Made by a program: the position numbers and the translations under genes. A DNA stretch of 64,000 bases from Pilasporangium apinafurcum. Lineage: Eukaryota; Oomycota; Peronosporomycetes; Pythiales; Pythiaceae. The notes below the pieces were generated by a model that had not been told where the DNA came from, did no database searches, and saw only the letters and a program-made list of their open reading frames with translations. The stretch spans positions 553,291 to 617,290 of the forward strand of contig BCKE01000016.1 in the NCBI GenBank assembly GCA_001600495.1, in the 5' to 3' direction. This document shows positions 3 to 58,530 of the stretch, in pieces (position 1 is the stretch's first letter; every line of letters begins with the position of its first letter).

Positions 3-3000
3 TGGGCGAGTATGGCGAGTGTTGATGTGCGTAATTTCCACGAAAAAGTACCGGAAACAGCTATGAAGTACGACTTCGAATTAGATACATTCCAGAAGGA
101 GTGCATCATTCACTTGGAGCGTCACGAGTGCGTGTTCGTCGCTGCACATACATCTGCAGGGAAGACCGTTGTAGCCGAATACGCCATTGCGATGTCACAG
201 AAGCATATGACCCGCACAATTTATACGTCACCCATCAAGGCGCTCTCTAACCAAAAATATCGCGATTTCCGAACGAAATTCGGAGTTGAGAATGTTGGCC
301 TCATCACAGGTGACGTTAGCATCAATCCCGAGGCAAGCTGTCTCGTCATGACTACTGAGATTCTACGTTCCATGTTGTACCGTGGAGCGGATGTGATTCG
401 CGATATTGAATGGGTGATTTTTGACGAAATCCATTACATCAACGATAGCGAGCGTGGCGTGGTATGGGAAGAAGTGATCATCATGCTGCCAGAGCATATT
501 GGAATGGTATTTTTATCCGCGACAACTCCAAATCATTTGGAGTTTTCGGACTGGATTGGCCGCACAAAGAAAAAGAAAATTCATGTTATCTCTACGTCAA
601 AGCGACCGGTTCCGCTTCAACATTTCCTATATGCAGGGAAGGAATTATTTAAACTGTATGATGCTTCTTCTGGATATCTTCCAGGAGCATATGGTGCGGC
701 GAAAGCAAAGCTCTTTCCTCCATCAGATAAACCAAAACCAATGGGACGAGGTGGCGGTCAAGTCGGAGGTGGTAGCTCAAGGAATATGGGACGAACATCT
801 GGTGGAGATCAAAGCGACTGGACCAAGTTGATCGGATCCTTAAAAGAAAAAAGTTTGCTTCCTGTTGTTGTGTTCGCATTCAGCAAGAGGCTTTGCGAGG
901 AAAGTGCAAACAAACTGTCGAAACTGGATCTCAGTTCTCCGTCTGAGCGATCTGAAATCCATCTGTTCCTCGAATCCAGCATTCAGCGTTTACAGGGATC
1001 GGATCGTCAATTACCACAAGTTCTTTCCATGAAGGAAATGTTGAAGCGAGGTATTGGTGTACACCACGGTGGGCTACTACCAATTATCAAAGAAATGGTG
1101 GAGATTTTGTTTGGTCGAGGCCTTGTCAAAGTGCTTTTCTCGACCGAAACCTTTGCAATGGGGGTGAATATGCCAGCTCGCACAGTGGTGTTTAATGGAA
1201 TCCGAAAGCATGATGGAAAAAATTTTCGAGACTTGTTACCGGGCGAGTACACGCAGATGGCTGGTCGAGCAGGACGTCGAGGGTTGGATTTAGTCGGCAC
1301 TGTGATTATTGCTTGCTGGAATGATATTCCCGAGCCAACATCTTTGCAGACAATGTTGGCTGGAAAGGCGACCGCACTATCGAGTCAGTTCCGACTAACG
1401 TACAATATGATACTGAACCTATTGCGCGTGGAAGTGTTGACTGTAGAGGACATGATGAAACGTTCTTTTTCGGAATTCCATACTCAAAAAGCGCTAGCAA
1501 CGAGGAATATTCCTCAATTGATGAACAAAGGCAAGCAGTTGCTTCAGCAATTGGAGAAGGCACTCTTGGACGACTATTCGCATCTTGCAGCATCCAGGGA
1601 GCTTTCTCAAATCCAAGAGTTTTATCAAATGAAAAAGGAAAAACGTGAGCTCGAGAAAAAAGTGACCAAGTGGATCTTGGCAAACAATGCGCAAGCAGCC
1701 AAGAGTGCGATTGCCCCAGGTCGTATTGTGCTTGTGAACGTGAAGGGACTTCCCGTGGATCAACCAGCGCTGGTTGTTCGAACCAATGCATTTGGGGTTG
1801 AAGAAGGTACGGCACGATTCTCCAAAATCTCCTTTGAACAGAATAATGGAATTGGAGCTTCAAGTAAGGGCGTCTTCAAATCCATCGTCATCATTTGTCT
1901 GTGCCCTGACGATTATGAACCACCTCATGATACATCATTGATATCAAGCACTGATTTACAATCACAGGGCAGCATTGGAGGATTTGGTGGGCGATTACTA
2001 CGTAGTAAACGAGACGATGATGATGAGCTGATGATGGGTCGTATGAGTAAGAGAGGGGTTGGAGGCAAAGTGAAAGAAGCAAAAGAGTTGGAATCGAATA
2101 CGACTGACACGTTGGTTGGAAAGAAGTATGCGATTCTGGATATTCCTGAATCGTGCGTTGAAAGTGTGACTGCTGAATACGCGTCGAAGATCGACATGAA
2201 AACGTTAGTCGCCAACTCATCGAAGAAAGAACTTGCTAGTAGTATCGAATTCCTCACTACAATTGAAATGAAATTGATGGCAACGCATCGCGCAGGCGTG
2301 ATGTTTGTAGACGTCATGGCTGAGCTTCGCATGAATGATCTTGAAGTTGCAACAGCGTATGCCAACTGGCAGCAACTGTATCAATTAATCCAGAATCATC
2401 CATGCTTTACAGATTCATCTGCAACTACTTCGCGAGTGCTGACCAGAGTCGAAAAGATCTCCAAGCTCAAGGACTATTTGATCCGGATGACACGAGAGAT
2501 GTCGAATGATTCATTGTCATTATTCCCTGATTTCCAGCAGCGATTGAGTGTGCTCAAACGGCTCGGATATATTTCTGGAGATGGAGTCGTGCAAGTGAAA
2601 GGACGAGTAGCCTGTGAGATCAACACCTGCGAGGAAATTGTGCTGACCGAAATGATTTTTGAGAATGTACTGGCAAATCTCGAGCCTGAGGAAATTGTCG
2701 CAGTTCTGTCAGCGCTAATTTTCCAGGAGAAGACACAATCGGAACCAACATTAACCCCTCGACTGGAGGATGCACGTGACGTGGTGAAGCGTATTGCCGA
2801 GTCGCTAGGACTCATTCAGCTGGAGCAGCACTTGGAAATTGACCCTGCCGTATATTGTAAAGGTGCGCTGAACTTCGGATTGATGGAAGTAGTCTACGAA
2901 TGGGCACGAGGGATGCCCTTCAAAGAGCTATGCCTTCTCACAGATATCCAAGAAGGGTCTATTGTGCGATGCATTACGCGCCTTGATGAGGTTTGTCGAG

Positions 3001-3116
3001 AAGTACGCAATGCTGCTCGTGTAATTGGTGACCCGCGACTGTTTAGGAAGATGGAGGTTGCCTCGGAAGCAATCAAACGTGATGTGGTGTTTGCAAGCAG
3101 CCTATATCTAACTTAG
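3..3116 (+). CDS. SKI2: SKI2-type DExH RNA helicase, 5'-truncated by window
   Basis: This is the ATP-dependent RNA helicase of the SKI complex, which feeds mRNA into the cytoplasmic exosome for 3'-5' decay. The frame is open to the first base of the window and the usual N-terminal region of about 250-300 residues is missing, so the visible 1034 residues from ATG 12 are a partial protein. Visible motifs, numbered from that Met: Walker A AHTSAGKT near residue 45, DEIH at 138-141, SATTPN near 169, the RecA2 motif QMAGRAGRRGLD near 420, then the SKI2-type arch insertion and a C-terminal DSHCT-like helical region. The linking sequence (KHMTRTIYTSPIKALSNQK, GVHHGGLLP, FRLTYNMILNLLRVE) follows SKI2 rather than MTR4, although the box is DEIH as in MTR4 instead of the usual DEVH of SKI2. 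No intron is needed in the visible part. Confidence 0.93.
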   Translation, partial: WASMASVDVRNFHEKVPETAMKYDFELDTFQKECIIHLERHECVFVAAHTSAGKTVVAEYAIAMSQKHMTRTIYTSPIKALSNQKYRDFRTKFGVENVGLITGDVSINPEASCLVMTTEILRSMLYRGADVIRDIEWVIFDEIHYINDSERGVVWEEVIIMLPEHIGMVFLSATTPNHLEFSDWIGRTKKKKIHVISTSKRPVPLQHFLYAGKELFKLYDASSGYLPGAYGAAKAKLFPPSDKPKPMGRGGGQVGGGSSRNMGRTSGGDQSDWTKLIGSLKEKSLLPVVVFAFSKRLCEESANKLSKLDLSSPSERSEIHLFLESSIQRLQGSDRQLPQVLSMKEMLKRGIGVHHGGLLPIIKEMVEILFGRGLVKVLFSTETFAMGVNMPARTVVFNGIRKHDGKNFRDLLPGEYTQMAGRAGRRGLDLVGTVIIACWNDIPEPTSLQTMLAGKATALSSQFRLTYNMILNLLRVEVLTVEDMMKRSFSEFHTQKALATRNIPQLMNKGKQLLQQLEKALLDDYSHLAASRELSQIQEFYQMKKEKRELEKKVTKWILANNAQAAKSAIAPGRIVLVNVKGLPVDQPALVVRTNAFGVEEGTARFSKISFEQNNGIGASSKGVFKSIVIICLCPDDYEPPHDTSLISSTDLQSQGSIGGFGGRLLRSKRDDDDELMMGRMSKRGVGGKVKEAKELESNTTDTLVGKKYAILDIPESCVESVTAEYASKIDMKTLVANSSKKELASSIEFLTTIEMKLMATHRAGVMFVDVMAELRMNDLEVATAYANWQQLYQLIQNHPCFTDSSATTSRVLTRVEKISKLKDYLIRMTREMSNDSLSLFPDFQQRLSVLKRLGYISGDGVVQVKGRVACEINTCEEIVLTEMIFENVLANLEPEEIVAVLSALIFQEKTQSEPTLTPRLEDARDVVKRIAESLGLIQLEQHLEIDPAVYCKGALNFGLMEVVYEWARGMPFKELCLLTDIQEGSIVRCITRLDEVCREVRNAARVIGDPRLFRKMEVASEAIKRDVVFASSLYLT

Positions 3117-3202
3117 CGGAAACGATAGCAAGGCATGTAGATAATATAGCAAGGTCTCTCTATGGACAATTGTTTTCACTTTGTGTTATGTGTCTGTTCT
3201 AA

Positions 3203-4055
3203 TCAAAGTAAATATGATTCTTGGCTAAAATCGCTTTGTTCTGCTTCTTCTCGAGATTCGAAGGGGCGGATGTGTGGGCGATTGTGTTGTTCCTCGATGT
3301 CGATCGATGTAACTTGGAAGATAATCGCTGCTCTTGCTTTCTTTGCGTGACCTCTAGTAACTGGTAGCAATTCGTGAGGTACTCTGCAGCCATTTCTCAA
3401 AGCAATATTCTTTCTGTTGATAAAAATCCCCAACACAGCTTCAAGATAAACCAGCCGATCCTTCCGTTTGGTTTGACCGGTTATCTTGCCTGCTGCTTCC
3501 ATCAGTGCAAAGAAGAAGACACCAAGCGATTTGCTTTCTTCTTTGGTGAGCACTGACGAGAGTGATTTCATCATATCTACCATGCATTTCAAATTCAGCT
3601 CAAACGTCGGCAAATCAAAGGGATCCTTCAGCGCTTTGATTTTTTTCACACAACACGCCAAGTTCACCGATCGCTGATACTCTCGTCTTTGTTAGTTGTA
3701 AATGCGATAGACTAGGCTGTTGCCATTGTTGTCGTAGGTGCTGGATGCAAATCCGGCCAACAACAACAAGTGGAGCTTATTTAATTGTCACACTGTAGCT
3801 CACAGCTACTCAAGCGATCCGCAAATACCTGTATTAGGGACGTTAGGGACACTTGCAATTGGAGGTACGACTTTGATAGAGTACGTACCACTTTAGTGCC
3901 ACTGAAGACATTTTGGTTGACTTCAAGCGTCTGCATCGTCTCTTCTACCTGCACGCCCTGCTGTAATGCTCCACTGCAGGTAGTGGTCTACAAGCAAGCA
4001 TCCCTCAGCTCTACCTCAAGCACAGCAGTGCAGTAGCAGAACCGTGTTTGCTCGT
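3203..4055 (-). pseudogene. Degenerate coding stretch of unknown family, several frame breaks
   Basis: On the minus strand there are coding-like blocks that do not join into one frame. A helical, Gln/Leu-rich block (about 3995 down to 3835, with TMQTLEVNQNVFSGTK) could splice at a GT near 3829 to a block at about 3776-3695 (AGFASSTYDNNGNSLVYRIY). That block is in frame with a third block (3691-3395, including LNLKCMVDMMKSLSSVLTKE) but separated from it by an in-frame TAA at 3692-3694. Near 3393 the coding-like sequence shifts frame again. No ATG opens the third block; its first possible start is GTG at 3667. Either this is a decaying gene, or a multi-intron gene whose small introns I could not place. 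I do not recognise the family. It ends 87 bp from the end of SKI2, tail to tail. Confidence 0.4.
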
Positions 4056-4571
4056 CTAGACGCGCGAGAATTCACTTAAACCTGTTACCACTACTACTGT
4101 CCATTGGCATTGCTCCTGCCAGTTCAATAGTAAAAAGCAACAAGGTTTTTTATTCATTTTTAGGCATTTCTTCCAAAAAGTGAGATCGACAAATCGAGCA
4201 ATCAATTATTTATCCAGGATGGCCAATAATGTGAGTTCTTCGCGCAATAATTATTGTCCAGTGCTTGTCTGACACCAATATAGCCATCCGAGGTGTGTTG
4301 TTCCTTTCCCAATACGAGAACAAACAATGAAAAGTCACATTGTATCAATCCTCTATTAGAAAATGTAAGGTACAGAGAGCCAAAGAGTGTGAGAAAATCT
4401 AAAATGGGATGAGAAGGTTCTACATATTGACTAATGGTTGTCTGCTGGTCTATTCACAGAAATAGAAGCTTCTTCCAGACAAATTTGACAATTTGTTGGG
4501 TTGATGATCCCATATCTTCATCGCACATTTTTGTTTTTAGTCGAGGTACATGTAGCCATGGTCTTCATTGT
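4056..4571. other. Intergenic, no gene seen
   Basis: No ORF here has coding character or a recognisable family. Short frames on the + strand (for example 4434-4895) overlap the downstream secreted-protein gene in another frame. Confidence 0.5.
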
Positions 4572-5293: not shown

Positions 5294-5683
5294 GTTTCAC
5301 AGGAATGATGCTGTTCCAAAAAAGGATTCACCTATAATTTAAGTTTTTTGTCTTGGATAGTTGCTTTCTATTGTATCATCACCATGACACGGCCATATAT
5401 ATTCGAAATAGCAATGTTTCCGCTGGTTATATATTGACTCAGACGTCGGTGTGATTGTTTGCTGTCATCGTTCCTATCTCTTCGTTCTTGGAGGCATCTA
5501 AAAATTAGACTGAGAATCTACTGGTGAGTCGTCAATACATCGATGGCAGTCGCGTACGACTAGAAGCGTCATTTAGTGAAATCCAAGATACAAAATACAC
5601 AACGTCATATGCATTGTTCGGGTCGACGGCCGTTTAAGATCGAAAAGGTGCATCTACATGTGCTGAAGCTCTGTGTTAGCCTC
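5294..5683. other. Intergenic, no gene seen
   Basis: Downstream region of the secreted protein. No ORF of coding character. Confidence 0.5.
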
Positions 5684-5684
5684 A

Positions 5685-6010
5685 AGAGATCATATGAGAT
5701 ACCAAGGTACCAGTAACTCAGGGAGGACTTATGTTTTTTGTTTGGGTCCGACTCAAGCGGTAGAAGCTAGCTAAGACTAGACAATCGCGACGTAGACATC
5801 TTCGATACCTGGACTTGATGAATAAGTGGTCATTCTTGAAAAAGATACTCCTAGTGTGATGTTTTCCTTCCTTTCGCACCAATACTACCGCGCCACGCTT
5901 TCTGGACAATCGTTTTGATTTTCCACGTATACGATCTCTTTGGGCATGTATCGTCATCGCCTTATATCTGTTCTTGAAAATAGGAATGGCGTTGAAAAGA
6001 GCTCATTGCG
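5685..6010 (-). repeat. Copy A of the Fanzor-like repeat, decayed and internally deleted
   Basis: This stretch aligns, with many substitutions, to the reverse complement of the repeat at 19.5-20.4 kb and in the same direction as the copy at 57.6-58.5 kb. Shared landmarks are AGAGATCATATGAGA at its left edge, AACTCAGGGA, GGTC(T/C)GACT, AAGACTAGACAA, CATTCTT-AAGA and TTTCTGGACA. About 130 bp covering the zinc-ribbon code are missing relative to the other copies: the minus-strand frame runs KEGKHHT directly into SIFFKN. The conserved 27-nt palindrome is disrupted by a longer loop here. It is the oldest-looking of the four copies. Confidence 0.7.
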
Positions 6011-7043
6011 GAGAATTGGAAACAAGCTTCTGCTTCTATCGATAGGGATTGCTTCACTTAACAAGCAATCCGCAAGTCAAGGGAGCCAAAAACAGCCTAA
6101 TTCTTAGGTTGGCCAAAATCCAAAAAATCCGCTATTCGTGCTCTACGAAAATGTGTGGCAGTTCGAAACAGATCCGTCCAAGAAAACTTGTTTCCCGTGA
6201 TTATTATCCAAGTCGTAGCATCCAGAGAGGAGAACTGGTACGACAAAATTTGCATTTTCTGTCAGATGGTCATCGATTTTGCGATTCTCAAGGTCGTTCA
6301 GAACATAAAAAATACCACAATACCATTTTTGTCCAATGATATACTCTGTAGCACATAGTATGGAACTCAAGTGCTGAAGAGTGGCTTAAGACACCAACAG
6401 TATTGCACCAATAACTCGAAGATTGCCGCCAAATTACTTGGACGACAAACACTCTTGACAATATTAGAGCTCATTTTATTCAATATGGTTAGGGTAAATG
6501 ACATATATGAAACGAATTATGAATCAAAAGAAATAAAAACGATGACCATCAAGCTAAAACAATGCCAAAATGGAAGCGAATACTCATCTTTGACTGCTAA
6601 TTACTCGACAACCACTAGTTCGATTTGAACGCTGTTTGCTTTGTTCATCATTACAAATAAAAAACTATCCTATGCCAAAATATTATGTGCTAAAAGGCAG
6701 TTGCGGATTTTTTGAGTTTAGGAAAACAACTGAAAACTGGCACCGTTGGCTCGTGGATTGCTTGTTAAAAAAAACACGTCAAAGTGTATCCTACAGGTAG
6801 GAGAAATGGGACGATAGAGGCTAAGCATAAACAATTAAAATGCTTGCTCAAGAATGATGGTTTTTATTTCATTTGTTATAAAACCGTAAAATAACGAATC
6901 TATAAAATAATAAAAATTGAGAAAATGAAATTGTAATTGGGGCTATTATTTATTTACAAGGGATATGATATTTTTATGAAGGTATTACAGTACTTGTTCA
7001 ATTGAGCTTTCTTGTGAGAGAAAGAAAGAGACCCGGAAGCTGC
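6011..7043. other. AT-rich intergenic, no gene seen
   Basis: A low-GC stretch between repeat copy A and the SZT2 promoter. Short frames (6049-6339, 6371-6628) have no recognisable features. Confidence 0.5.
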
Positions 7044-7122: not shown

Positions 7123-10100
7123 ATGAAGAGTGTGAAACAGCTTCTTCTTTACAGCAGCGACATTAACGTCGTGAATCGCACAACGTTGTCGCTCTGGCAT
7201 TTCCAGCAGATGGCGCGGCATCTCCTACCATTTGAACCGGGTGGAGACATGAATGCAGGTGAGCCAGAAGACGATCATGACGATTCGATAAGTGATGCTG
7301 CGGATCGTCCAGATAGTAAACATGCACCAAATAAGAGGAAGCGAGCCATGGAATTAGGCGAAGGCATGGGAATAGCTGCGGTTCTATATGAAGAAAATGA
7401 ACATATAGTCACAGATGACGAGAATAGTGACGATACAGATTCTGAAGATGATTCTGTGGAAGAGACACATGAGGATGCCGATGTCAGCGTGAAGCAAACG
7501 ACCGGAATGATTGCAGATTCGAATACAGTGGTGCAGGCGGTTCTTACGCCATTGTCGCAAGTGTCAGTGATTTATAAGCGCTATCGTTGTGCGATTTGCT
7601 TGGATGCGTCGCCATCGACACTCTCTATTGATCCCATGAGCGGTCGATTGTTCTTGGATTTGCTCTATGAGTCAGTTGAGGTACGTGGGAGCTTAGTGTG
7701 GTGCCATAAATGGGATATTTTGCAGCATCTTAGTATTCCTTGAACCTGACAGATGTCTTTCGTGGATGTAGCTGTTTATATGGAGTCTGTTACGACCAAT
7801 GGAAGTCGATAACCAGCCGTTCACTCCAGAAATTCATGTTACTGTGTTAGTACAGGGTGCCCACGTAGATTCCCTTTGCGTACTCCTTCAAGGGTATGTT
7901 GTCAAGGCTTCCAACGCTGCAGGGTTCCTTCAGATCGTTAGGGAGCGAATGCAACTAATTGAAGACGACTGGGCAGAGAAAGCACAGAGCGATGGATATG
8001 TGGAATCCACTGCTAATTCTCAGCAAACAAGAGCAAGCTTATCGTGGATCATACAGAACGCAGTGTTTGCCCTGAACTCTTTACCAAGTAATGGTGCCCC
8101 AATTCTCGCATTCGTCACAGATGGAGTTGTGGATTTATTTGATGCTTACTCATACGACAACTTGCTGATGCAGCTCATTCGTCATGATATCCAGTGTCAT
8201 TTCCTACGAACTGGAGGAAGCGGAGAAGAACCGAACGCATCGTTTGGATTTGTGCCTGATATCGATCTCTTGCGTTTTATTGCTGATTCAAGTGGTGGAA
8301 GTGTCTTCGACTATGTGGCGCTTCATGATGCATTGAATGGTTCAGCATCCGAGCAGGACGCTGTGAAGCATATGACTGGTCTTCAAGAAGCATGCTTTAT
8401 CCGAAAGTCCAGTGTTTACGCAGTTTCAACACCGATACTGAAGTTAGATGAAATTTGCTGCACTTCATTCGATGGTCGGACTCTACTACCTTTACGGCCA
8501 TATCGGATGTGGCGAGAAAAAGTGCATGAATATCGAATATTTGCAGATGTGGACCGAATTATCGAAGCGCGAATTCGTGAAGGTTTTATCATCAACAAAG
8601 TACATGTGAAGACCTATTACAAACCTGCCTCGGAAGCCAACTTGAAAAGGATAACCGATGCAGCACACAATTCCGAAGACGGAGCAGATGTGGCTTCCAC
8701 TCGTGAAGTTACCAAGATTTTGATTGTATTTCTTCTTCAGTGGAAACAGAACGTTTGGATTGAGTATGTTGTGTCGGCAACATTAGAAAACGCTTCTTCT
8801 GGTACTACAGCAGCGATTAGACGTTCTAGTATCCAGGGAGGGAAGACAGGAACAGGCGTGACGAACTTTACACAAAAAGCGATGAATCTCAGTTTGTCTA
8901 AGGATCATGCACGCGCTAGGAACTGGAATGAGTGGTACGTGAAGATGAACATCATAGCGTATTCAGAGTTTCTACGTGAATTTGGAGATTGCATGCAATC
9001 CTCTTCGTCGGCAAATGGAGCGAGTCGTTCGGGATTTAGTGCCTACAAGTCTGGGTCTCCTGTATTTCTACACGAATTTATTCGAAATGTCCAAGACGTG
9101 GATCGAGTTTTGCTACACTTGATGACTGCAACTGTGGTAGCAAGTTCAGCTGCAAGCTCTACGAACCAGTATTCCTTTAATACTAGCGGTAATGCATCAT
9201 CATCTTCTACTGTAGTGAGCTCTCACCAGAATTCTCATCCTGTCTTCAACATCATTGGTGAACTATCACCTGTGCTGTGGCATCGATGGTTTTACGTGGA
9301 GCGTTTTGAGATGGTTTGCGTGGTGAAGAACGACATTTTTACTGAATTCTTCTATCGACATGAAGAGAATGGTACGATAGATCGCGGGCATTCGATTCAA
9401 CGTATGAGAGCTATGAACATGCCAAACCCATCACGACGATTTGTGAATAGCCTTGGTGGAAATACGTATGGAATTTCCATTGGGGTCAAGCAAATATCTG
9501 AACGACTCGGGTCAACATTGTTGAAGTGGTCATCTCAGAAGTTATCGAGTGATTTATTCCTAAAGTTCCTCACACCTCATTCTACCGATGGAAGTTCGTT
9601 GAGACTAAAGAATACTGCTGTTTCGGCATCATCTACGACCCCGACAACCCGTCGTCGTCGACAGCGGCCTTCACCTGATAATTCGACTGCAGATGGTTTC
9701 GAGAATAGCAACAGTACGACCGGGAAGACCAGATCGTCCCTGTGTTTCGTTCGACTTGAAATTAAAAACAAGACTTTATGCGCTATCCACGTTGCTTTTT
9801 TCGCGACTGGACCTGCTGCGCGAAAGCAAACCCTGATTGAGTTGAAAAATGCTATAGCAGCGGGGCTAAACGATCTTTCCCCTAATGCTTCGTCCTCGTC
9901 ACAGTCAAAGTCAATTGTACTGTGCCATCGAATGATAAGCCGTTTATTGGTTACCCATGCTACGCTGGTTCTATGTGAAGGAGGTCCAGGGGTGTCGTCC
10001 CACGAACACTTGAATCCACCCATAGCACATCAGGTCGTTAGTTCGTGTTGTGGTGGTAGCGAATTGCAGTTGCGAAATGTCTTTGGAGCGTACATGTGGC

Positions 10101-13100
10101 ATTCGAGTTGGAAATGGAAGATTTCGAATCCAAATGCTTTGTTGCGGGCAATGCGTCAAATTCATGAAGCAAGAATTCAAAGTGGATTCTGGGTTCTTGA
10201 TTGGAAGGTACACGATGATGATGATGGGCAGAATCCTCGTATTGAAAGCGTAATATTTGGTCGAGAAATATTAATGGAAGATGAAAACGGTCATGTGAAA
10301 GCGTCCTTGGTTCAGTATGCACTTCATCGACTTTCAGAAGCGTGCTTGATGACATCTCTGTGGATGGAACCCCAACATGGCGTAGTCAGGACCCGGATGT
10401 CAGACCGCGTAGACAAGTCCGACAAATTCCATTGGGGACTACGTCACGCAATCGGTCATGATGCGCCTTTTGATGAAGTAGATGCAACTTTGAACCGTGG
10501 TACACAAAATGTGAATGGAACAGCTGATGCTCAAAACTCTACTGCCAACTTTACTGAAGAAGCGGACTTTGAATGGCATGGTTCAACTTATCTAGGTGAA
10601 AATGATTTGTTACAGTTGATCCGACAGTACATATTCAAGCGTGATCGGCATTATTTGTCGTGTCTGTACACGCTTGACGCTATTATGAACATGCGCGAGA
10701 GCATTGAGCCACAGTCTCAGTTGAGCAAGGATGTAGAAGACGTCGTGGGAGCTTCATGGCGTATGGATAATCAAGCCGCAGCTGCGAAGGACTTATTACT
10801 CCCACCCTTTAGTACAACTCGATTACTTGGGGCTTCAAAGAGATCTACTGAGCATTTCCTCATGTACTTAGAGAACAAGACGGGAAACACGGCAGAAACA
10901 ATTGCTCGCTTGGATAAACCTACGGTGTCTCCTGCGAATGAACATTTATATTCAATGTTGGAGCGCACATTACGTGGTTTGAGTGATTGTGAAGTGGCAT
11001 GGACGGATTTCAATGGAGATGAAGTTGGTGCAAAAACTAATGACGGTTATGACTCTGATAGCCATTTGCTTGATCAGGGAACGATGGGTCAAATGCCATT
11101 GTGGTTGAAAAATCGACTTAGCTTATCTTTCCAGAAGAAGAATGCTCATCCAACTCTCAGTCGTGGCAAGTGCTTTGCAAAGCTACTTAGTAATGGCAAC
11201 GTGGTACTTGCCTTTTTGCCATCCTTGGATAGTTTACAGCTGAAGAGCAAAATGATAGGAAACTCGATCAATAGTACTGCTACCTCAAGTATTCACCTTC
11301 CAGAAAAGTTGAAATGGCTAGATGGAGCAGCACCAGCGGCTCAAGAAGATTCAGGAATGACCCAACTGTCAACGTCTGCAGATGACATCGTATTGTATCA
11401 AGAACGACGGCTTAGCTTCCGCGAGGGATATAAATCTTGGCGGATGGGTCACTATCATGGCTCAAAAGATGCAAAATCGGCCTATGATCAAAATTCTCGT
11501 AAGCTACGTAGGTTTTCCACACCTGAAGCCCACAAATTCTGCGAAGAAGTTAGTCAGGAAGCGACCTATGGTGCTGATTTTCACCTACTTATTGAACGTG
11601 ACGATGGTGTGCTTGGGTCTGGTTTTTTCCAGGTTGCATTTTATGAGTGCTCGATTTCTCGTCTATCAGACGTGTACGACCTACAAAAGGAGAAGCAACA
11701 TTTGGATCTACCTCAAGCTATTATACGGCGATTATTCTTCCCAAGTACGATGCCGAAATTGCATACAGAACGAGGATCATCCGTTGTTGGTAAGGAGAAT
11801 GTGAAGAAGTCATTAGCCAGTTCATCGGCTAAACCCACCGGGGTTGCATCTAATGTAACCACGTCTAAAAGCGATAGTGATACAATTGCTTATCGCCAAT
11901 TTCGGAAGAAGGTGAAGCGTGCGCATGAGCACAACTTTTCGCGTGGTGTTTATATTGCATTGCGAGAAGGTGGAAACTTGCAGCAAAGTGACTTGATGCA
12001 GGCATTATCGAGTTGTATCGAGGTCCCTATCGATGTGGATATTACACTTTTGTATCGAATGCTACAGGCAACCACTGGATTTTATCCGACGCGAGGCAGT
12101 AGCGCTGTGCTAAAAGAAAAACTATACAAATCGTTTGAGACAATATTATCGACAACGTTTGTACCCATTGCCGGAACGAAGTATTATTACTTCAATGGTA
12201 ATGAAAACATCACATATGATGACACGTCTGAAGGAGAACTTGACTTGCATTTTCTCGTGGATGACCGGGATGGTGCAGAGTCGTCAGCAGCTGGGACTGA
12301 AACAGAATCTGGGCGTTTGATTCTGAACGATATGGATGAAGATGATAACGGCAGTTTGGACGATATCTCTATCGATGAACTGGCATCTTCTTCGAATGAT
12401 TCGATAGAAAAGTCGACTATATCGACAGTACCGTCGATACAGGGCAACGCAGCTAGTATGGATCCTAAAGAGAATTCAAAAACTTCTCGAACCACTCGAC
12501 GTGCTGCTCGTCGTCGACCACCACCTGTGATGATATCTTCAACAGAATTTCGTGTTCTTGAGCAACATGCAAGTACAGATGAAGACGCTGAGTTTAACAA
12601 GGATGTCGCAGTCGCAACGTCTAGCTTTTCATCTCCGTTCTTTTTCAGATTCGAATGTCGAGAACTTGCCAGCCCCCGTAGTCTAAGAGACACTAGATTA
12701 GAAATTCACCAGCAGAATGCAATTAGTACGTCAATTGCATATCCTATGGATGCACAGAACGAGCTATCAGGGAGTGAAGCTACCCCGGGAGTACAACATC
12801 GATCGCAGGAAGAGAGTTCTGAAGCATCTTCAGCTTCGTTCTTGGCTGGAGTTGGAGTTGAACATGGAGATATTTCACAGATTGCAGAATGGTTTGGAAA
12901 TACCCCATCTTGCCGAGTAGCGTTGAGGTTGGTTACGCTAACCTTGCCGAACGAGAAGCTTTTCGAAGGTTCACTTCAGCAGCAGCATCAAATGCCATTT
13001 GATATGGAAGAAGGTGACCAGTGGAAAGGGATGCGTCCAACACGGGCTCAGATCTTGTCTTCCCTTCCTCTCTTTCAACGGCAAATTCTCAAGCGTGCCA

Positions 13101-16100
13101 GAAAAGATATCAAAGAATGGTGCAGCGTCGAAATTTTAGCAATCCTGAGAAAAGGACACAAGATCACACCATCAATCGGTCAACTCGTTCAGCGACTATT
13201 CGAAGATTTGCCTGCTCACTCGGTTACAGTCGCAAAATATCCACTGGATTTCGTTTCAAGTAGTGAAGATGCCTCCATTGATCCACTTAGTATATTCAAG
13301 AGAGAATTGGAAACGGGTGGCCCACTGTTTGTACACGAATGTAACAGTGTCTACTTCGTAATCAATCGCAAAGAATCAGGGCATGACATTTCCGTCGAAC
13401 GAGAAAACTTGTCAACTGCTGACTCAACCTTCGAAATTCCGTTTTGGGCATATTTTGTGATAGAAAGAGATTGCGTAAACCTTTATCTGCATCATCCGGA
13501 TCGTTTGACGACAAAGAGTCAAACATTTGACCGCTTAGCCGTCCTCACTCGTCTTCAGTTGGGAGTGATGGCTGTTTGCAAACGAGTGAATCAATTTTTG
13601 CTATTATTACAACTGCATGAGACACGAACTGCAAATAGTTATTTGATTCCTGGTGATGTTAACCAAGTTTCCAGTCCAGTATCCCAGAAGCGAAAAGATT
13701 CAGCAATTGATTTACAAGAGACAGATCACCGTAAATTTTTCTGGCCTGGGCAGTTTGAATGCGATCTTAAATATTCGGCGGTGTTTAAGCTGCATGAGCG
13801 ACTGGCACCCAATATCGCACTGAACATGTTATGCACATCCGCGTTGGAACAATTTCAAGTGCACAATCGGCGCTATACTTTCGTTTATCGAGATCGAGGA
13901 GGCCATGTTTACTATATGAAAATTAGTATCCAGCACGACAACTCCACGGGAGCTACGGAAGACAAGCGAGATAGACCCAGGTCGAGTCGTATGCACAGTG
14001 CAGCCATCTCAGTCGCAATGACAAACAGTACCAACTCATCCGTTGTGAACGGTGGTGCTGGTATTTTGTTAGAAGTGTTTGGCGTATGTGAGGCGGGAGA
14101 GGAAGTAACGCACGAGCTATGTCGCCTATTGGAGAGAAAGTTAGATGAGGCGACTCAATTGATCCTGATGAAACTGTTGGCCCGGAATGCAAAATTCCAA
14201 CTAAGCCCAACCGACATGACGTTTGTCTATGCTGGTAGCCCTGCAGAGACTGTTGATTATGTGCTACCTCTCCAAGTTATTGATGGATCTGTGTTGATTC
14301 ACTATATGTGTCAAACGCTTTCGTTGGTACCGTATATTCGTCATTTGACCAATCCAGGGTTGTCTAAAGTACAGCGCGATAATCGAAGTGACAGCTCAGC
14401 AACTCATGATAAAGCAGCCAACAATGACTTGCCAGACGTAGCTGCAGGACCTGAGCTTCAATTGAATGGGAGGACAGATTCGATGAGACATTTGACTGAT
14501 TCCACTCTAGTTCATCCTGCATATGGCTTCAGCAACAAAATTCTGCTAGATGAGCACAAAGAAGAACTAACGGACTCGAATCGTATATCTCCCGTATTTT
14601 TCTCGGTACCAAGCAAGGACATGACTGTTGAACCAAAGAATGTGTCGATTTTGCCTGAAATAGTTGATCAAGCGTCATACGTATTGAATCTGAACCCAGA
14701 ACTGCGTCTTTCTCCAGGATTTTTGTCGAAAGTAGGTAGGGGACTTGCTGTTCTACACGTTGACATTGTTCAAAACTTGATGGTTGAAGGTGATACATAT
14801 GCAAACGATGGCACTCGTGTGAAGTATTTGAAAGATTTCATGGACATTGATTCTACAGACAACGCCTTACTGAAATCGTCGAGCCGTCCCCACCTTACAC
14901 TACGGTGTAAGCTCTGGATTAGAGGAAGCATCAATATCCAGGAACTTCAGCGAGCTTTGGAGTCATGTCTACAGGAAGTGCTTTCAGATTTTTGTATCGA
15001 GACAATAATTCGCGAAAGACTTACTTCTCAATCGAAAGATCACATGGAACAAGAAACGAAAGGCAAGCAAATAGGTTTGCCAGCATCTGTGCAGACTTTA
15101 GCAACCTTGCTGGAAAAATTCTACGATATTTCATCTTCATCCTTGACGAAAATTTCTCACCCAGTATCTATTGCGTCATGGGACGTTGGGAATATAGTCG
15201 CTCAACTCCAAAAGATTTTGATGTGCATTCCATCGCATCTTCGACCTGTTGTCTACTCCAAGAAGGATGCAGACAGCGAATACGAATTGCTCCCGCTATC
15301 AGATCAACTCGGATGCTGGAATGAGCACAGCCATCAATATTTCCGATTAGTTCCGAGACTTCGGCAGGACCCCCTGGATCCTCTTTGTGCTGTGAATGTC
15401 GATAATGTTCGTGCACTGAAGAGCTCGATTCCAGTAGTGCACTCTGACCCAGTTCTTCTAGATCAATCTGACACAAGTTCTCAGTCGGGAGTGTCCCACC
15501 TTCATTTGGGATCGACGACTGGATCCGAGTCAAATCTAAGTGCTTCTTGTTATCAAGTACCGTCTTCATCCTTTCATGCTCCTGCTCATCATCCGACCAA
15601 AGAATTTGTTGAAAGTGAATTGCTGCTATTCCAGAATAGTGCGACTGGTGGTGTATCTGCAGTGACAAATGCAGACGGAAAGTTAACAGGCACGGATAAA
15701 TCTCTTCCAAGTCGATCTTTTTATTATGTTATTGATATTTCATCAACCGCGGGGATGCAAATGTACGGTTACAACATGAGTTCAGCATTTGTTGACTGGA
15801 TCTTAGTTCATACTGCCCGTATTATAACATGGTCGAGCCTTCGAGAAATGGTCCTAAGAAGTCTGCTGCTAGAAAAGAGTGGCATTTCTCAAAGTGCACC
15901 AACAGGATCTGCTGTTATTCATCCGCGAGATCTGTATCGAAATACTGGCGGTGCGCTGATTGGCAAAAGTTCATTTTCGATACCGAAAGACTTCTGTGTA
16001 CAGTATATTGAGTTCTGGAAGCCGGTGATGGAGATACTAAGTGACCACTTCGTGATTCCAAAAGTACTCGATTCATCGCAGCTTCAATTGATTGACGCAA

Positions 16101-19100
16101 GCTCCTTAGGAAAATTTCTTCGCGAAGCACACACATTACCAAGTGACTCGGCTGACATACATCGTCCACGATCAAGAAGTACTGCAAGCTTGCAAGGTGT
16201 TGCAAGCACTAGTGCTGCTTCGCCAATGCTTCACCGAGAAGCATCAAGTCAATCATCATCTTGGAGTATTCACAGCGAGGCCGGAGCTAGCAGGTCGACG
16301 AAACCTATCGCCACTCGAGAGTCATCGTTATCGATGAAGAAGAGCGACCGGACGGTTCCGTCTCCTACAAAAAGAGTCGGTCCGATCGTACCATTTGGAG
16401 GAGGGAACAGTAGTAATGTATTACCTGCGCGGCTACGTGGTAACGCTGGAGCGACAACGGCGCTCCTTGCAGCTAGAGCTCGAGCAAGAGGGGGTTTGCC
16501 AGGTAGACCAGGCACAGGACCATTGCCGCGACCCGCAGTTGGCACTGATGGTGTGGCTCCATGGGATTTGCCTCTGACCAATACGAAGGGACCAGTTTTG
16601 AACACAAGTGGGGATTCCGCAAGTGTGACGAACTCAACTAATGGTATAGCTCTGGCACGTGATAGCAACAATACTGGTAATTCAATAGCTCCTACCCATG
16701 CAGCTCGAAACGTGCCGCCACATGGATCTTCATCTACCAGTGATCAGCAACAAATGCCTTCATCCATAATTAGTGATCCCGGCAAATTTGTTGGGACTGC
16801 ATGGAAGAATCAGGTGAAGTGTGTGTGGGGTCCACGATTTACATTCAGCGACAGTTTTGATCGCAAAAAAGATCCAAAAAAACCATTCGTCACGCTAAAA
16901 TCATCCAACCGCCTCGGAGTAAAGTCGGAGCAGGGTATGTTGAAAAATCCACTTCAATACTACACACACGCATTCCAGACCCGCTGGCAACAATACGAGA
17001 CCCAATCAACCAGTCATACCATATGCGTGAATCTTTTTGAAAAGCTCGTCATGATGAAGCCACAGGAAAAGATGGACGAACCAGTCTCGCGAAATATCAT
17101 TGACCGTCTAGTAGAGAGCGGGCATCTGTTGCTTCATCAACGCTTTCGTATCACATTTGTGGAACGCTGGGAAGTGATGAAAGTAGAGGAAGAATTTGTT
17201 GAAGAGGGCATGAAATCTGGTCGATTACGTGCTCTTCAAGCATCGATGGACCTTGTCAATCTGTTGTCTTACAAGAAGGAAGTCGTGTTTGCTGGTAACG
17301 ATGTGGCTATAGCGAATTTGTACACTGAGCGCACAGTATTGGGAATGTGTGCTACTGAGGGTGGTGCTATCCGTGAGATGAAGATGCAGATTATGAAGAA
17401 TATTTTCCACTTGCGAATGGAGGTTGCTCATGCGTTTTATGAACAATGTGCCATTCATTTGCAGTCAATTGGCTTTCAGCATCTTGTGACAGTGACAAAT
17501 CACACAGTGGAAATGTTGTCGCGGTCGTCTTCGTTGCTTGGTGTCTCAAGTGTGGATGATCGAAAACCAGTAACAGCAATGGATGTTACAGCCGCTGATA
17601 GTGAAGGATTCTCCGAATATTTCTTCTACTCTGTGAGATCGAACGATAAGGCGAAAGGGTGGATGAGTGATGAACCGGATCCGCCATCACTACTGCTATT
17701 GGAGCTGAAATGTGATCATCAGGGAGTTCGTTTAGGTGTCATTCTCGTTAGTGAAAGGGATCTTCTACAACAAAACTTGGGCTTTCAAAACTCTCTTGTT
17801 CCCTGCCGAGTCGGTCCAAAAGCAAAGAAAAATCAGGACTTGATTGTAACAGGAGCTATGATCAACATGGTGTCCAGATGGGTGAAGGAAAATATGTACA
17901 CATCGACTATGATCTACGGGTTTACGATTCGATTTTTCCAGAAATACTTGCTTAAGTGGTACTTTGAGTATCGAGCTAAAGACTCACAGGCACCTTCATC
18001 ATCACCTCCACAACGAACAAAAGATGCCAACTCGTTCCAAAACATTGTAAAAGGATTGCGATGCTTTCTACGCGCGTTTCCAAATCCACCACCTCCTGTG
18101 GAGTTTTCGAAACGGGCAAAGAAGGGGATCGCTCAACAATTAGGTGAGAGCATACTTCGGACAGCAGTAGTCGAGCTTCCTCCAACGCATTTGCATTCGA
18201 ACTGTTCCGAGTCCATTTTGCTGAAGATTTTGTTGCGATACATTGCATGTCATGGGACTCGTTACGAAGTGCTCGATTTGATGCAATTTGGCACTCCAGA
18301 TGCAGTGGTCTGTCATTCGGAATCGGGAAGTTTCTTCCATCGATCGACGTCTGCAAATACAATTCGAAGAGACCAAGTCATGGCTCCAGAAGATTATCCT
18401 GGGTACTCGTTGCTGATCACGTCACAGAGCATTGAAGTGGATTTCGGTCTCTTATCGCACGAGAAGAAGCGACGGCGAAATTGTATCCAGCTTATTCTAT
18501 TGAAGAGCTCACCCATGTCATTTGGTGTTGGCAATGGAGTGTTACCAGAGGATCGAGCGCTTGGGGAAGCGGAATTGTTTGTGCAGGAACTCTTTCGTGT
18601 GGCAGCAGAGCATTATGAACGTGATCTGCTTTGGTCACGCCTGCTTTACGACGACACGACAGGTCCAGGCGCGCAGGTGGCTGCAAAGTTGGCGCTGCCA
18701 GTGGATCATTTCAAAGTGGAAGTAGGACCACAGCAATTCGAGGAATGTCTGCGGTTGTCCGTGTGTACCCCATTGGAGGAGATTGATCCACGGCTCGAAG
18801 AGATTATGAATGTCGAAGGCGTGTTTTGGCAGGAGTTTGCACTGCGATTGCGGGACCTCTACGCGGATCAAGTGAAGGAGTATCAGTTTGAAGGCGAGGA
18901 TGCATGCCATTTTCTGTTGCTCTGTCCGAATACGCACGATCTAATTATCCACTTGAGGTTTGATACAAGTGGAAATGAAATCGATGTGCCGGCCACATCC
19001 AATGGAAGAGAGGTCAAAATTGAGATTTGTCGACGCGAAGAACCAGCAAACAAGACGTTTACTGCTGCGCAGCGCCGAGTCATCACGGATTTTGTCAATA

Positions 19101-19141
19101 GTATCGTGCATTGGCAATGGCGAAGTCTCATCTACGATTGA
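7123..19141 (+). CDS. SZT2: SZT2-like KICSTOR subunit (2 exons, about 3975 aa)
   Basis: SZT2 is the very large scaffold of KICSTOR, which in animals ties GATOR1 to lysosomes and represses TORC1 when amino acids are low. Exon 1 (7123-7680) begins with a conserved N-terminal block (VKQLLLYSSDINVVNRTTL) and carries an acidic linker and a YRCAICLDASPST block. An intron (7681-7771) joins it to one 11.4-kb exon (7772-19141). Across the joint the protein reads LLYESVE then LFIWSLLRPMEV, followed by FTPEIHVTVLVQG, ALNSLPSNGAPILAFVTDG, WIEYVV and WMEPQHGVV, all in the order expected for SZT2. Low-complexity Ser/Thr-rich linkers lie near residues 1600-1700 and 2970-3160. The deduced length is somewhat above animal SZT2 (about 3400). 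ATG 7123 is chosen because the ORF's first start-like codon (7114) is TTG. Identification is by remembered family similarity. Confidence 0.87.
7681..7771 (+). other. SZT2 intron (91 nt, phase 0)
   Basis: The donor GTACGT follows GAG at 7680 and the acceptor is TAG at 7769-7771. Removing it joins the two frames and restores the conserved LLRP block encoded just before the first ATG of the long second frame. That ATG (7799) is therefore internal and not a start. Confidence 0.8.
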
Positions 19142-19483
19142 AGAAGGTGTGCCAAGGTTGCCAACAATAAATATGCGTCAATAATACACACACTAATATA
19201 CGATTTTACTGTATTAATTACTATCACAATTTCCTGGTTGATCCAAATAGGGTTTATTACTTCCCACCATAAATAGGATTTCTTTTCTCTAAATTATCAA
19301 TCTAAGCGATTTTGGGGTAGCCCCCATTAAGGCGTTTATGGTTTCCAGATTAGCGAACCAAGGCCCGGAAGGTGTGGCTCGATTTTGACCAAATTATCAT
19401 GGTGGACACTTTCAAGGAGTGAATTCATTACTAAAATTCTGAGAACTTTTTCGCATTCACTCGAGTCTAGTCCTAGAGCTGGC
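19142..19483. other. Intergenic 3' of SZT2, no gene seen
   Basis: AT-rich spacer between the SZT2 stop and repeat copy B. Confidence 0.5.
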
Positions 19484-20050
19484 GTGTATGTTACATGGAA
19501 GCGTTCACCCGAACACAAATGCATTTTAACTCATAGCTTAACATAGCAGAAACATACACAAACGATAACTGATACTGTTCTTTAAAACTGATAATCTTGG
19601 GAAATGAGTCACATTTATCATCCAATCTCATGTCGCTGNAGCTGAGCTCCGTTGATCTCGTCAGTGGGAATAATGCAGAAGTGGTGAGACGATAGTGAAA
19701 TCGATATTGAGGCAGCTGAAGTATTGCTTGCCTTAGTTCATCATTGCGTACACACGCCGATTATAGCATGTACACCCAGTCATCACTCCACAAATACTTG
19801 CATACATCTTCTCTTTGAGGTTAGAGCAAGTACCACAGTAGAGCAACATCTTTCAATTGCAAATTTTGTACACTCGTTATGCTCGAACTTTTGTCTTTTT
19901 GTTATTCTTCGATACTCGGGAAGATCACCAAGAGCTATGAGAGTGCGCAATGAACGCCATTCTTCTTTTCAAGAACGGATGTGAGGAGATCGAGTGCGTG
20001 GAAAATCAGAGTGACTGTCCAGAAAGTGTGACGCAGTAGTATCAGTGTGA

Positions 20051-20251
20051 AAGGAAAGCAAGCATCACACATACGACTGTAAGGAACACTTTACAACAAA
20101 GATCTATTCTCAGTGTAGGAGAATCAATCACAAGATGAAGCATCAAAAAGTCTTTCAGTACTCTCATTGCAAGTTCGTTCTTGATAGAGATGCCAATGCT
20201 GCTAGAAACATCTTTCTTAAGAATGGGCACCTACTCTCCTGGATTCATTGA
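20051..20251 (+). pseudogene. Degenerate TnpB/Fanzor C-terminal zinc ribbon and RuvC-III (copy B)
   Basis: The frame reads about 66 codons from the stop at 20048 to a TGA at 20249. It contains FTTKIYSQCRRINHK, then VFQYSHCKF and LDRDANAARNIFLKN. In TnpB/Fanzor proteins (OrfB_Zn_ribbon family) the corresponding pattern is TSKTCSxCG...FxCxxCxxxxDRDxNAARNI. The RuvC-III Asp block DRDANAARN is intact, but the first Cys of each ribbon pair is Tyr (TAT at 20105, TAC at 20159) and CG is CR. Upstream the frame is broken by stops, so this is a remnant and not a functional nuclease. Family assignment rests on this short but characteristic motif. Confidence 0.72.
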
Positions 20252-20311
20252 ATCCAAGTGTCGAAGTTGGCTACTCCGCGGTTGTCTAGTCTTGATTAAT
20301 CAAGTCAGACC
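20241..20311 (+). other. Conserved palindromes at the right end of repeat copy B
   Basis: Immediately at and after the stop of the zinc-ribbon remnant lie a perfect 15-nt palindrome GGATTCATTGAATCC (20241-20255) and a perfect 14-nt palindrome CTTGATTAATCAAG (20291-20304). The latter sits inside a longer imperfect one (20285-20311). Both recur in copy C (44185-44255) and copy D (57701-57771). Hairpins just downstream of a TnpB-like frame are what one expects of an IS-type right end or a guide (omega) RNA scaffold; that role is inferred. Confidence 0.5.
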
Positions 20312-20368
20312 CAAAGAGCATAGCGGAGGATCTTCTCGAGGTACCGGTATTTCGGTATCTCACATGAT

Positions 20369-20636
20369 GTATTGTGACGTTGTAGCAGCAGTAGATTCTT
20401 GTACCACATTAGTTTTCAAAGGTGAATAATCACTTATATTGATATTTATATGAGGGGATGGGGCGCGAACCAGAATTTCGCGCTAATATTTATTTATAGA
20501 GGTTTACGATGTAATCATCATTGCAGATCAACAGTTACGATTCGCGCGGCATTGATTTTCCATTTTTAGTCGTTCCGACTTGTTTCGGCACCAAGAGCCA
20601 AGAGCTGCGCAGATCGACAGAGAGAGTTTAACTGCC
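20369..20636. other. Intergenic, 5' region of the PDZ gene
   Basis: AT-rich leader region. A GCATTGATTTTCCATTTTTA stretch (20549-20568) weakly resembles an initiator plus flanking element 70-90 bp before the ATG at 20637. Confidence 0.3.
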
Positions 20637-43732: not shown

Positions 43733-43852
43733 TAGAAGTCTTTTTTTCACAGGCGGGTGAACGATATGAGCACGAGCCGTTTCAAAAATATCCAAAGGCC
43801 GCTTGTTTGTATTAACTTTGGAGAATTAGCCAGCTAGCAATATCAGTATTTT

Positions 43853-44317
43853 TCGATACTCGGGAAGATCACCAAGAGCTATGAGAGTGCGCAATGAACG
43901 CCATTCTTCTTTTCAAGAACGGATGTGAGGAGATCGAGTGCGTGGAAAATCAGAGTGACTGTCCAGAAAGTGTGACGCAGTAGTATCAGTGTGAAAGGAA
44001 AGCAAGCATCACACATACGACTGTAAGGAACACTTTACAACAAAGATCTATTCTCAGTGTAGGAGAATCAACCACAAGATGAAGCACCAAAAAGTCTTTC
44101 AGTACTCTCATTGCAAGTTCGTTCTTGATAGAGATGCCAATGCTGCTAGAAACATCTTTCTTAAGAATGGGCACCTACTCTCCTGGATTCATTGAATCCA
44201 AGTGTCGAAGTTGGCTACTTCGCGGTTGTCTAGTCTTGATTAATCAAGTCAGACCCAAAGAACATAGCAGAGAATCTTCCCTGAGTTACCAGTATTTCGG
44301 TATTTCATAAGATTTCT
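43853..44317 (+). repeat. Copy C of the Fanzor-like repeat, 5'-truncated
   Basis: This copy aligns with 19909-20368 in the same orientation with few substitutions, starting at CGATACTCGGGAAGATCACC and ending at the TATTTCATAAGATTTCTGGG edge. It lacks the left 0.42 kb of copies B and D. It lies between the TPR gene ATG (43732, other strand) and the scramblase ATG (44405). Confidence 0.85.
43995..44195 (+). pseudogene. Degenerate TnpB/Fanzor zinc ribbon (copy C)
   Basis: Homologous position and reading to the copy B remnant, with MKHQKVFQYSHCKF and LDRDANAARNIFLKN. The same two Cys-to-Tyr changes are present, so the decay predates the duplication. Confidence 0.68.
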
Positions 44318-44404
44318 GGGGCGACCTGTCAAGAGGACTCCTCAACTCACCGCAAGATCACCACACCCCAAGCATTGGATAACAAGAAAAAAGAGGTGAA
44401 GACC

Positions 44405-57528: not shown

Positions 57529-57644
57529 CACAATCTCAACTCTCTGGCTGACTCGGTCACGAGTGTCTTATATCTTAATACTCGATCAACAAATCTAGAC
57601 ATGATATGCTTTTTTGATAGGTACGGCACACATTTCCATACCCC

Positions 57645-58530
57645 AGAGATCATATGAGACACTAAAGTAACTCAGGGAAGATTCTCTGCTATGCTCTTTG
57701 GGTCTGACTTGATTAATCAAGACTAGACAACCGCTGAGTAGCCAACTTCGACACTTGGATTCAATGAATCCAGGAGAGTAGGTGCCCATTCTTAAGAAAG
57801 ATGTTTCTAGCAGCATTGGCATCTCTATCAAGAACGAACTTGCAATGAGAGTACTGAAAGACTTTTTGGTGCTTCATCTTGTGGTTGATTCTCCTACACT
57901 GAGAATAGATCTTTGTTGTAAAGTGTTCCTTACAGTCGTATGTGTGATGCTTGCTTTCCTTTCACACTGATACTACTGCGTCACACTTTCTGGACAGTCA
58001 CTCTGATTTTCCACGCACTCGATCTCCTCACATCCGTTCTTGAAAAGAAGAATGGCGTTCATTGCGCACTCTCATAGCTCTTGGTGATCTTCCCGAGTAT
58101 CGAAGAATAACAAAAAGACAAAAGTTCGAGCATAACGAGTGTACAAAATTTGCAATTGAAAGATGTTGCTCTACTGTGGTACTTGCTCTAACCTCAAAGA
58201 GAAGATGTATGCAAGTATTTGTGGAGTGATGACTGGGTGTACATGCTATAATCGGCGTGTGTACGCAATGATGAACTAAGGCAAGCAATACTTCAGCTGC
58301 CTCAATATCGATTTCACTATCGTCTCACCACTTCTGCATTATTCCCACTGACGAGATCAACGGAGCTCAGCTNCAGCGACATGAGATTGGATGATAAATG
58401 TGACTCATTTCCCAAGATTATCAGTTTTAAAGAACAGTATCAGTTATCGTTTGTGTATGTTTCTGCTATGTTAAGCTATGAGTTAAAATGCATTCGTGTT
58501 CAGGTGAACGCTTCCACGTAACATATGTAT
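57645..58530 (-). repeat. Copy D of the Fanzor-like repeat, about 0.88 kb
   Basis: Near-identical reverse complement of copy B (position p here corresponds to about 78012 minus p there), including an N at 58373 facing the N at 19637. It begins 117 bp after the DCAF1 stop. It contains the degenerate zinc-ribbon frame (57761-57961, minus) and the palindromes (57701-57771). Confidence 0.87.
57761..57961 (-). pseudogene. Degenerate TnpB/Fanzor zinc ribbon (copy D)
   Basis: Same reading as in copies B and C: VFQYSHCKF and LDRDANAARNIFLKN on the minus strand, with Tyr at both lost Cys positions. Confidence 0.68.

Follow-up and report, generated by a model that had tools for sequence, protein, structure and literature searches.

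Decayed deletion derivatives of a Fanzor2 element of IS607 descent, probably spread through TTAA-type ends, in Pilasporangium apinafurcum

Introduction

Eukaryotic IS607-like elements carry Fanzor2, a protein with HTH_OrfB and zinc-ribbon domains, beside a TnpA_IS607 serine recombinase, and Fanzor2 has been given for three Phytophthora species (Bao and Jurka, 2013; PMC3627910). These elements are described there without terminal inverted repeats (TIRs) or target site duplications (TSDs). Cut-and-paste transposons of Chloropicon and molluscs have captured a Fanzor2, termed Fanzor2*, and in a published model Fanzor2 moved from IS607 into eukaryotic transposons as a step toward Fanzor1 (PMC10711439). 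In Spizellomyces, the ghost element Spu-1 comprises 134 loci, and the RNA scaffolds of four of them worked with the Fanzor protein (PMC10432273). Fanzor2 in cut-and-paste elements and ghost loci are both already known.

Here, we describe a repeat family of the oomycete Pilasporangium apinafurcum. Four copies lie in the window, which is the whole stretch of 64,000 nucleotides that was analyzed (C16:553291–617290); the genome searched was the 36.47 Mb assembly of 136 contigs. The family resembles the eukaryotic IS607-like elements in having Fanzor2 next to an IS607-type recombinase, and Phytophthora relatives were matched; unlike those elements as that source describes them, it has short inverted ends, TTAA-type duplications and a broken tnpA. 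As with Fanzor2*, Fanzor2 is found inside elements with TIRs and TSDs. However, the sections on Fanzor2* that were consulted mention no IS607 recombinase remnant, whereas the present family has a shared tnpA pseudogene, amplified deletion derivatives and a terminus common with a second Fanzor element. The short members are like ghost Spu-1 in their size (~0.5 kb), conserved ends, many copies and lack of a Fanzor frame. In contrast, ghost Spu-1 belongs to Fanzor1, while the family here is Fanzor2/IS607 and has a recognizable internal deletion that keeps the zinc-ribbon code. Duplication of a TTAA target is a property of piggyBac transposons, whose ends begin with CC; the present family shares the TTAA duplication and the CC at the start of the ends, but the elements read contain no piggyBac gene.

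Results

Related copies in the window

The four copies, named A to D, and the parts of copy A are given below. Type B denotes the longer of two forms of the right end.

19487–20368, + strand: copy A, a deletion derivative made of the left part, a zinc-ribbon piece and the long type B right end (BLASTN, A–B over 19487–20344 and A–C to 20368; alignment with related loci)
20057–20084, + strand: deletion junction in A, joining the left-end block to the 3′ part of Fanzor (pattern match at C16:573347–573374, 1 mismatch)
20072–20251, + strand: Fanzor C-terminal coding remnant in A, with the RuvC-II Glu, the zinc ribbon (2 of 4 Cys lost), RuvC-III and a TGA end (translation; PF07282, 28.6 bits; tblastn with P0001 residues 410–482, 71%)
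20252–20368, + strand: right end of A, type B; putative reRNA-encoding region (right-end alignments)
43847–44321, + strand: copy C, left-truncated, with a type B right end (BLASTN; junction 44001–44028; right-end pattern 44299–44321)
57641–58525, − strand: copy B, with a core near-identical to that of A (BLASTN; junction 57928–57955; right-end pattern 57641–57663)
5676–6049, − strand: copy D, more diverged, with the left-end and right-end blocks fused without the zinc ribbon (BLASTN; alignment; right-end pattern 5681–5703)

An earlier note on this DNA had regarded these four stretches as related. This proved correct: BLASTN of 19301–20600 against the window recovered B (98.7% identity over 859 bp, at 58525–57667), C (97.0% over 467 bp, at 43847–44313) and D, which was matched in three pieces of 80–85% identity (5993–5960, 5938–5854, and 5823–5773). 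The core had been translated in three of the copies as QCRRINHK, VFQYSHCKF and LDRDANAARNIFLKN, and all three strings were found again in A, B, and C, in a single frame running to a WIH-stop. The remnant in these copies is YDCKEHFTTKIYSQCRRINHKMKHQKVFQYSHCKFVLDRDANAARNIF, with one residue variable. Copy D was rightly left out of that group, since in the alignment it keeps the left-end and right-end blocks and its zinc ribbon is gone. In the profile search that the note had proposed, a 46-aa piece from the window matched the zinc-ribbon family PF07282 with 28.6 bits (cut-off, 26.3). Two of the four zinc cysteines are lost in the window remnants relative to the parent, and the 79 listed open frames of at least 100 aa in the window all lie outside copies A to D. 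The window also contains a 3780-aa open frame at 7799–19141 without a Pfam match at E 0.001, and no tRNA was found in a scan of the window. A glutamate dehydrogenase encoded in the window shares 75% identity with proteins of Phytophthora and Pythium and 65% with one of Saprolegnia, and the top matches among the 120 listed reach 81–82%; this suggests an oomycete closer to the first two genera than to the third.

Four copies in 64 kb had been called a high density. The four copies are present, but the genome as a whole holds only about 0.1 per 64 kb (61 junction places in 36.5 Mb), and the window stands out through local copying that left A, B, and C nearly identical. Over at least 545 bp of the core, which C also matches, A and B show no difference (100% identity), and their edges are diverged. 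The window contains just two N (19639 and 58373), which occupy the same position in A and B; thus, part of the A–B identity may be an assembly artefact. The left borders of A, B, and C are shifted, and the right ends of the window copies are diverged. We infer that A, B, and C go back to one element, which was duplicated locally, spread by gene conversion or partly copied by the assembly, and not to separate fresh insertions.

The parent element and its Fanzor2 protein

The search for a full-length parent yielded the 2.5 kb element L043, whose gene belongs to the same family as the remnants. It is 2494 bp long, with its left end at 6406–6157, its right end at 4176–3913 and TTAA on both sides, and it carries P0001, an open Fanzor2 frame of 483 aa, adjoining an IS607-type serine recombinase gene, tnpA. 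The left-end and right-end blocks are ~2.5 kb apart in L043 and L044. The earlier view of the repeat as the decayed C-terminus of a TnpB/Fanzor-like nuclease was right as to the family, but the copies, which join a left end to the zinc ribbon and a right end, are more than the C-terminus alone.

P0001 matched the PF07282 zinc ribbon and the TnpB-type HTH (HTH_OrfB) with 75.5 and 40.5 bits, respectively, and guided_TnpB with 147.7 bits (cut-off, 100). It also fits the published Fanzor expression DPG-x(120-160)-E-x6-CxxC-CxxC-D (PMC10711439), with the DPG in RuvC-I and, six residues ahead of the zinc finger, the alternative Glu. Five of 11 relatives of P0001 fit it as well; among the other six, P0024, P0027, and P0036 are gapped there, P0034 ends earlier, and P0041 and P0047 fail although they have no such gap. 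Across the genome, PF07282 gave at least 150 scored matches, all above the cut-off, among 852 candidates. The named relatives of P0001 in the best 120 of 1176 were Globisporangium and Phytophthora proteins, and no relative was found among viral contigs. The nearest solved sequence was the TnpB-like protein L79 (9b0l), which we take to be a mimivirus protein. By its sequence P0001 is a Fanzor, for which RNA-guided cleavage is predicted, and it was assigned to Fanzor2 because of its IS607 company. These results supported the repeat family as a Fanzor2 of IS607 descent.

The dN/dS values used for P0001 were 0.77 against L044, 0.55 against L046, 0.53 against L052, and 0.20 against L062, which is distant and has saturated dS. 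L051, which gave 0.58, is not among them, and L045, L047, L048, and L050 were not used because the alignment crosses their deletions.

Other Fanzor-type loci were observed in the same assembly. L013/L056, on a 20 kb contig (C135), has a TnpB-like frame with DPG and, by eye, a canonical Glu; it fails the Fanzor expression, has a weak resolvase-like match adjoining, and may belong to a contaminant or viral contig. Another Fanzor-type class containing ...RYTSISCSRCGKINKRLS... is present in several copies (L023, L026, L027, L029, and L035), with an open frame of 648 aa in L023 and frames interrupted by N in the four others.

The broken recombinase

Three matches to PF00239 (from 15 candidates) were found in the genome, and each has a PF07282 match no more than 1.5 kb away; in one of the three, the PF00239 stretch was free of stops. 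With the Phytophthora infestans relative P0119 as the tblastn query, tnpA remnants were detected in L043, L044, L045, L047, L048, L050, L051, and L052. Stops were counted by eye among the 150 scored of 231 candidates, and all 45 matches spanning at least 100 residues, a few of them in duplicated contig pieces, contained them. Several lesions were common to separate elements. A stop after PETIRG occurred in six of the seven elements covering the site, where L045 and L048 count as one at most because their tnpA pieces are identical, including an N. This shared N hints at assembly copying of repeats. The RVS of the Phytophthora relative, whose serine is presumably the catalytic serine of the recombinase, reads RVL in both full-length elements read, L043 and L044, i.e., Ser is changed to Leu; in L051 the serine is retained, with a stop two residues ahead of it. 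At DRLMRF, three residues are lost in L043, L044, and L052. A 132-aa piece of L044 scored 55 bits against NF033518, under the cut-off of 110.

L043 and L044 share 86% identity over 2.5 kb and have different flanks. This similarity, the different flanks and the common tnpA lesions together indicate that copying continued after tnpA broke. The tnpA gene appears dead, with no intact IS607-type TnpA among the long matches. Introns could account for some of the stops; they would leave the Ser-to-Leu change and the three-residue loss unexplained. P0001 is open over 483 codons, while the tnpA of the same element, L043, has several stops.

Deletion derivatives and copy numbers

The short form of the family is 506 bp, in which 250 bp of left end is joined to 259 bp comprising the zinc-ribbon code and the right end. 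The deletion junction of A, B, and C occurs at 58 other places, making 61 in total in 36.5 Mb (at most three mismatches; reversed-pattern control, 0). The 30-bp left end of the family was found at 125 places in the genome (control, 0). Following 100 listed left ends of these 125 showed the zinc-ribbon junction in 32, a tnpA fragment in 36 and neither in 32. The tnpA fragments define a second deletion class, in which the same left end is joined to the last third of tnpA (about residues 107–169); 72 such fragments were picked by hand from 150 scored rows (query start 98–110, end 167–169). Among the sequences retrieved, L052 alone belongs to the second class and shows such a fragment; it still has Fanzor code and a right end.

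The right end exists in a short form, type A (77 places; control, 13), and the longer type B (97 places; control, 0), to which the window copies belong. In most of the type B right ends that were read, no TTAA follows.

Element ends and target site

For the analysis of ends, 41 short and seven longer elements were anchored (n = 48), and two were dropped for N. The BLAST matches of the short copies had to span base 40 to base 480 of a 515-base query, and L039–L042 were omitted as repeats of other loci. The seven longer elements came from nine; L047, whose right end was partly matched, and L059, which has a type B right end, were omitted from the TSD test (L059 has TTAA on its left and TGAT on its right). 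The left end reads TTAA|CCTTTATT and the right end AATAACGG|TTAA. These are short inverted ends. The likeness between the left and right ends is limited to ~8 bp (CCTTTATT/CCGTTATT). Of the 48 elements, 46 were readable at both ends: 25 had TTAA/TTAA, four had identical non-TTAA pairs (TTAT in L006, L094, and L048; TTTA in L070) and 17 had unequal 4-mers (permutation p = 2.4e-4). A 4-bp target duplication of TTAA type and short inverted ends are thus present in this family.

The left flank was rich in T. At positions −8 to −5, T filled 125 of 188 cells, compared with A in 53 of 188 at +5 to +8 of the right flank (p = 1e-13). At least three T of four were found on the left of 31 of 47 copies, against two of 47 in the mirror image and 15 of 147 TTAA sites of the window. 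The resulting pattern, TTTY-TTAA, exists on the left flank alone. TTAA is palindromic, and a one-sided T-tract therefore needs an asymmetric reader.

The terminus is shared more widely. Its 18-bp form, TTAACCTTTATTCCCCCA, was found at 616 places (control, 13), far above the 125 left ends of this Fanzor2 family and the number of Fanzor elements identified. At L058, positions 2061–3435 (C50) form a second Fanzor-type element, which has a TTAACCTTTATTCCCCA-like terminus on either side (one and zero mismatches to the 17-mer). It encodes a broken Fanzor-type protein unlike P0001 (PF07282, 33.9 bits); the search of PDB with this Fanzor piece matched no TnpB or Fanzor, although Pfam did match. Its right end was present at 29 places in the genome (control, 0). 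The right parts of L089 and L092 are related to the L058 element, and a palindromic mini-element of ~60 bp in L093 (102–163) consists of two such ends.

Candidate transposase and right-end RNA

No transposase was seen inside the elements read. A piggyBac relative with an open 546-aa frame lies elsewhere in the genome, at C5:658288–659460. It was not adopted as a proven mover, since the 701 bases upstream of the gene contain no TTAACCTTTATT end.

RNA folding of 61 right ends gave a mean z of −1.24, with 18 below −2. The controls, of at most 30 copies each, gave −0.80 for mid-element, −0.30 for left-end and −0.26 for reverse-complement sequences. RNAalifold over the 61 right ends retained one 4-bp stem only. 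Both sides of one right-end stem changed in step between type A and the window copies, but this stem was broken in a subfamily. With this broken stem, the single 4-bp stem and the modest z values, right-end hairpins were rejected as strong evidence for a guide RNA. Rfam gave nothing at the gathering score in the window, and one match in L043 was far below its family's gathering score.

Discussion

In our reading, which has a probability of about two in three, a Fanzor2 transposon descended from IS607 exchanged its recombinase for TTAA cut-and-paste machinery, and copies A to D are its decayed, non-autonomous deletion derivatives. The following course is proposed. The tnpA gene of a Fanzor2/IS607 element would have broken, after which a TTAA-specific cut-and-paste transposase acting in trans, of piggyBac type to judge by target specificity, may have moved the family. 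Deletion copies with both ends would have been mobilized and amplified as well. More speculatively, the right end might encode a guide RNA, with which Fanzor2 might recognize the re-closed TTAA site after excision, with TTTYTTAA as the motif and the right flank as the target; repair of the cut from the sister copy might then keep copies that lie beside a good motif. Against the proposed spread stand the 17 of 46 elements with unequal 4-mers, for which decay is the sole explanation offered. The unequal flanks of L059, the short likeness of ~8 bp between the two ends, the type B right ends with no TTAA after them and the failure to see a transposase inside the elements read also count against it.

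Two explanations would dispense with TTAA cut-and-paste by the family's own ends. Had the serine recombinase moved the family, TTAA would be its crossover core and not a true target duplication. This agrees with the IS607-type TnpA remnants adjoining the Fanzor gene, and IS607 elements recombine at a short shared core (PMC10711439). However, tnpA is broken in all 45 long matches, with lesions common to separate insertions; the TTAT/TTAT and TTTA/TTTA pairs alter bases that this model assigns to the element; and the same terminus stands on both sides of a different Fanzor element, that in L058. We regard the recombinase as a quite improbable mover. We give still less weight to segmental duplication, or carriage as passengers of another element, as the way the repeats spread. 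A, B, and C do behave as local duplicates with shifted left borders, and the identical tnpA pieces of L045 and L048 with the same N point to assembly copying; yet the same two borders recur in most of the 41 aligned short copies, with flanks that look unrelated. Duplication holds for the window copies and is unlikely for the family as a whole.

The remaining explanations concern what Fanzor does. The left T-tract is what a target-adjacent motif, as Fanzor and TnpB read it, would leave, and the motif of GtFz1 was measured as TTAAN (PMC10432273). Alternatively, it could reflect what the transposase prefers, or belong to the element as a degenerate part. The family may have spread exactly as proposed while Fanzor had no role in copy retention, the T-rich flank being a transposase preference and the coding piece the passive baggage of one deletion; this has somewhat less than an even chance. 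The window copies without two of the four zinc ligands and the weak RNA folding signal speak for it. So does the second deletion class, with tnpA, which is about as common (36 against 32 of the 100 listed left ends), so that the zinc-ribbon class is not the sole successful one. It is harder to reconcile with the asymmetric reader that a T-tract on one side of a palindromic TTAA needs, with a P0001 open over 483 codons beside a tnpA with several stops, and with a dN/dS near 0.2 between P0001 and the distant L062, for which dS is saturated. At the other extreme, the short elements may serve as functional ghost loci, supplying guide RNAs to Fanzor proteins in trans, and their layout resembles the ~550-nt ghost elements of Spizellomyces (PMC10432273). 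This seems rather unlikely: right-end folding is weak, the right ends of the window copies are diverged, and those of the aligned short copies are no independent evidence because the copies were chosen for having both ends.

Returning to the TTAA cut-and-paste reading, we tentatively suggest, with the odds against it, that the family records the handover by which IS607 Fanzor2 elements became passengers of eukaryotic cut-and-paste transposition. The recombinase is broken in place, the TTAA ends are common with another Fanzor transposon, the deletion copies keep the putative guide-RNA end, and one Fanzor2 could police many empty TTAA sites through TTTYTTAA. In the open-access literature, no IS607-derived Fanzor2 with TTAA ends was described in the titles or abstract starts among the matches listed. 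If the suggestion is true, an element whose internal recombinase is dying while its outer ends are already of the new TTAA type would itself be the intermediate, in copies enough to order the steps. From the one-sided T-rich flank, the Fanzor2 motif can be predicted in a form open to direct testing, and the short copies offer a natural test of whether guide-RNA ends aid the persistence of a transposon.
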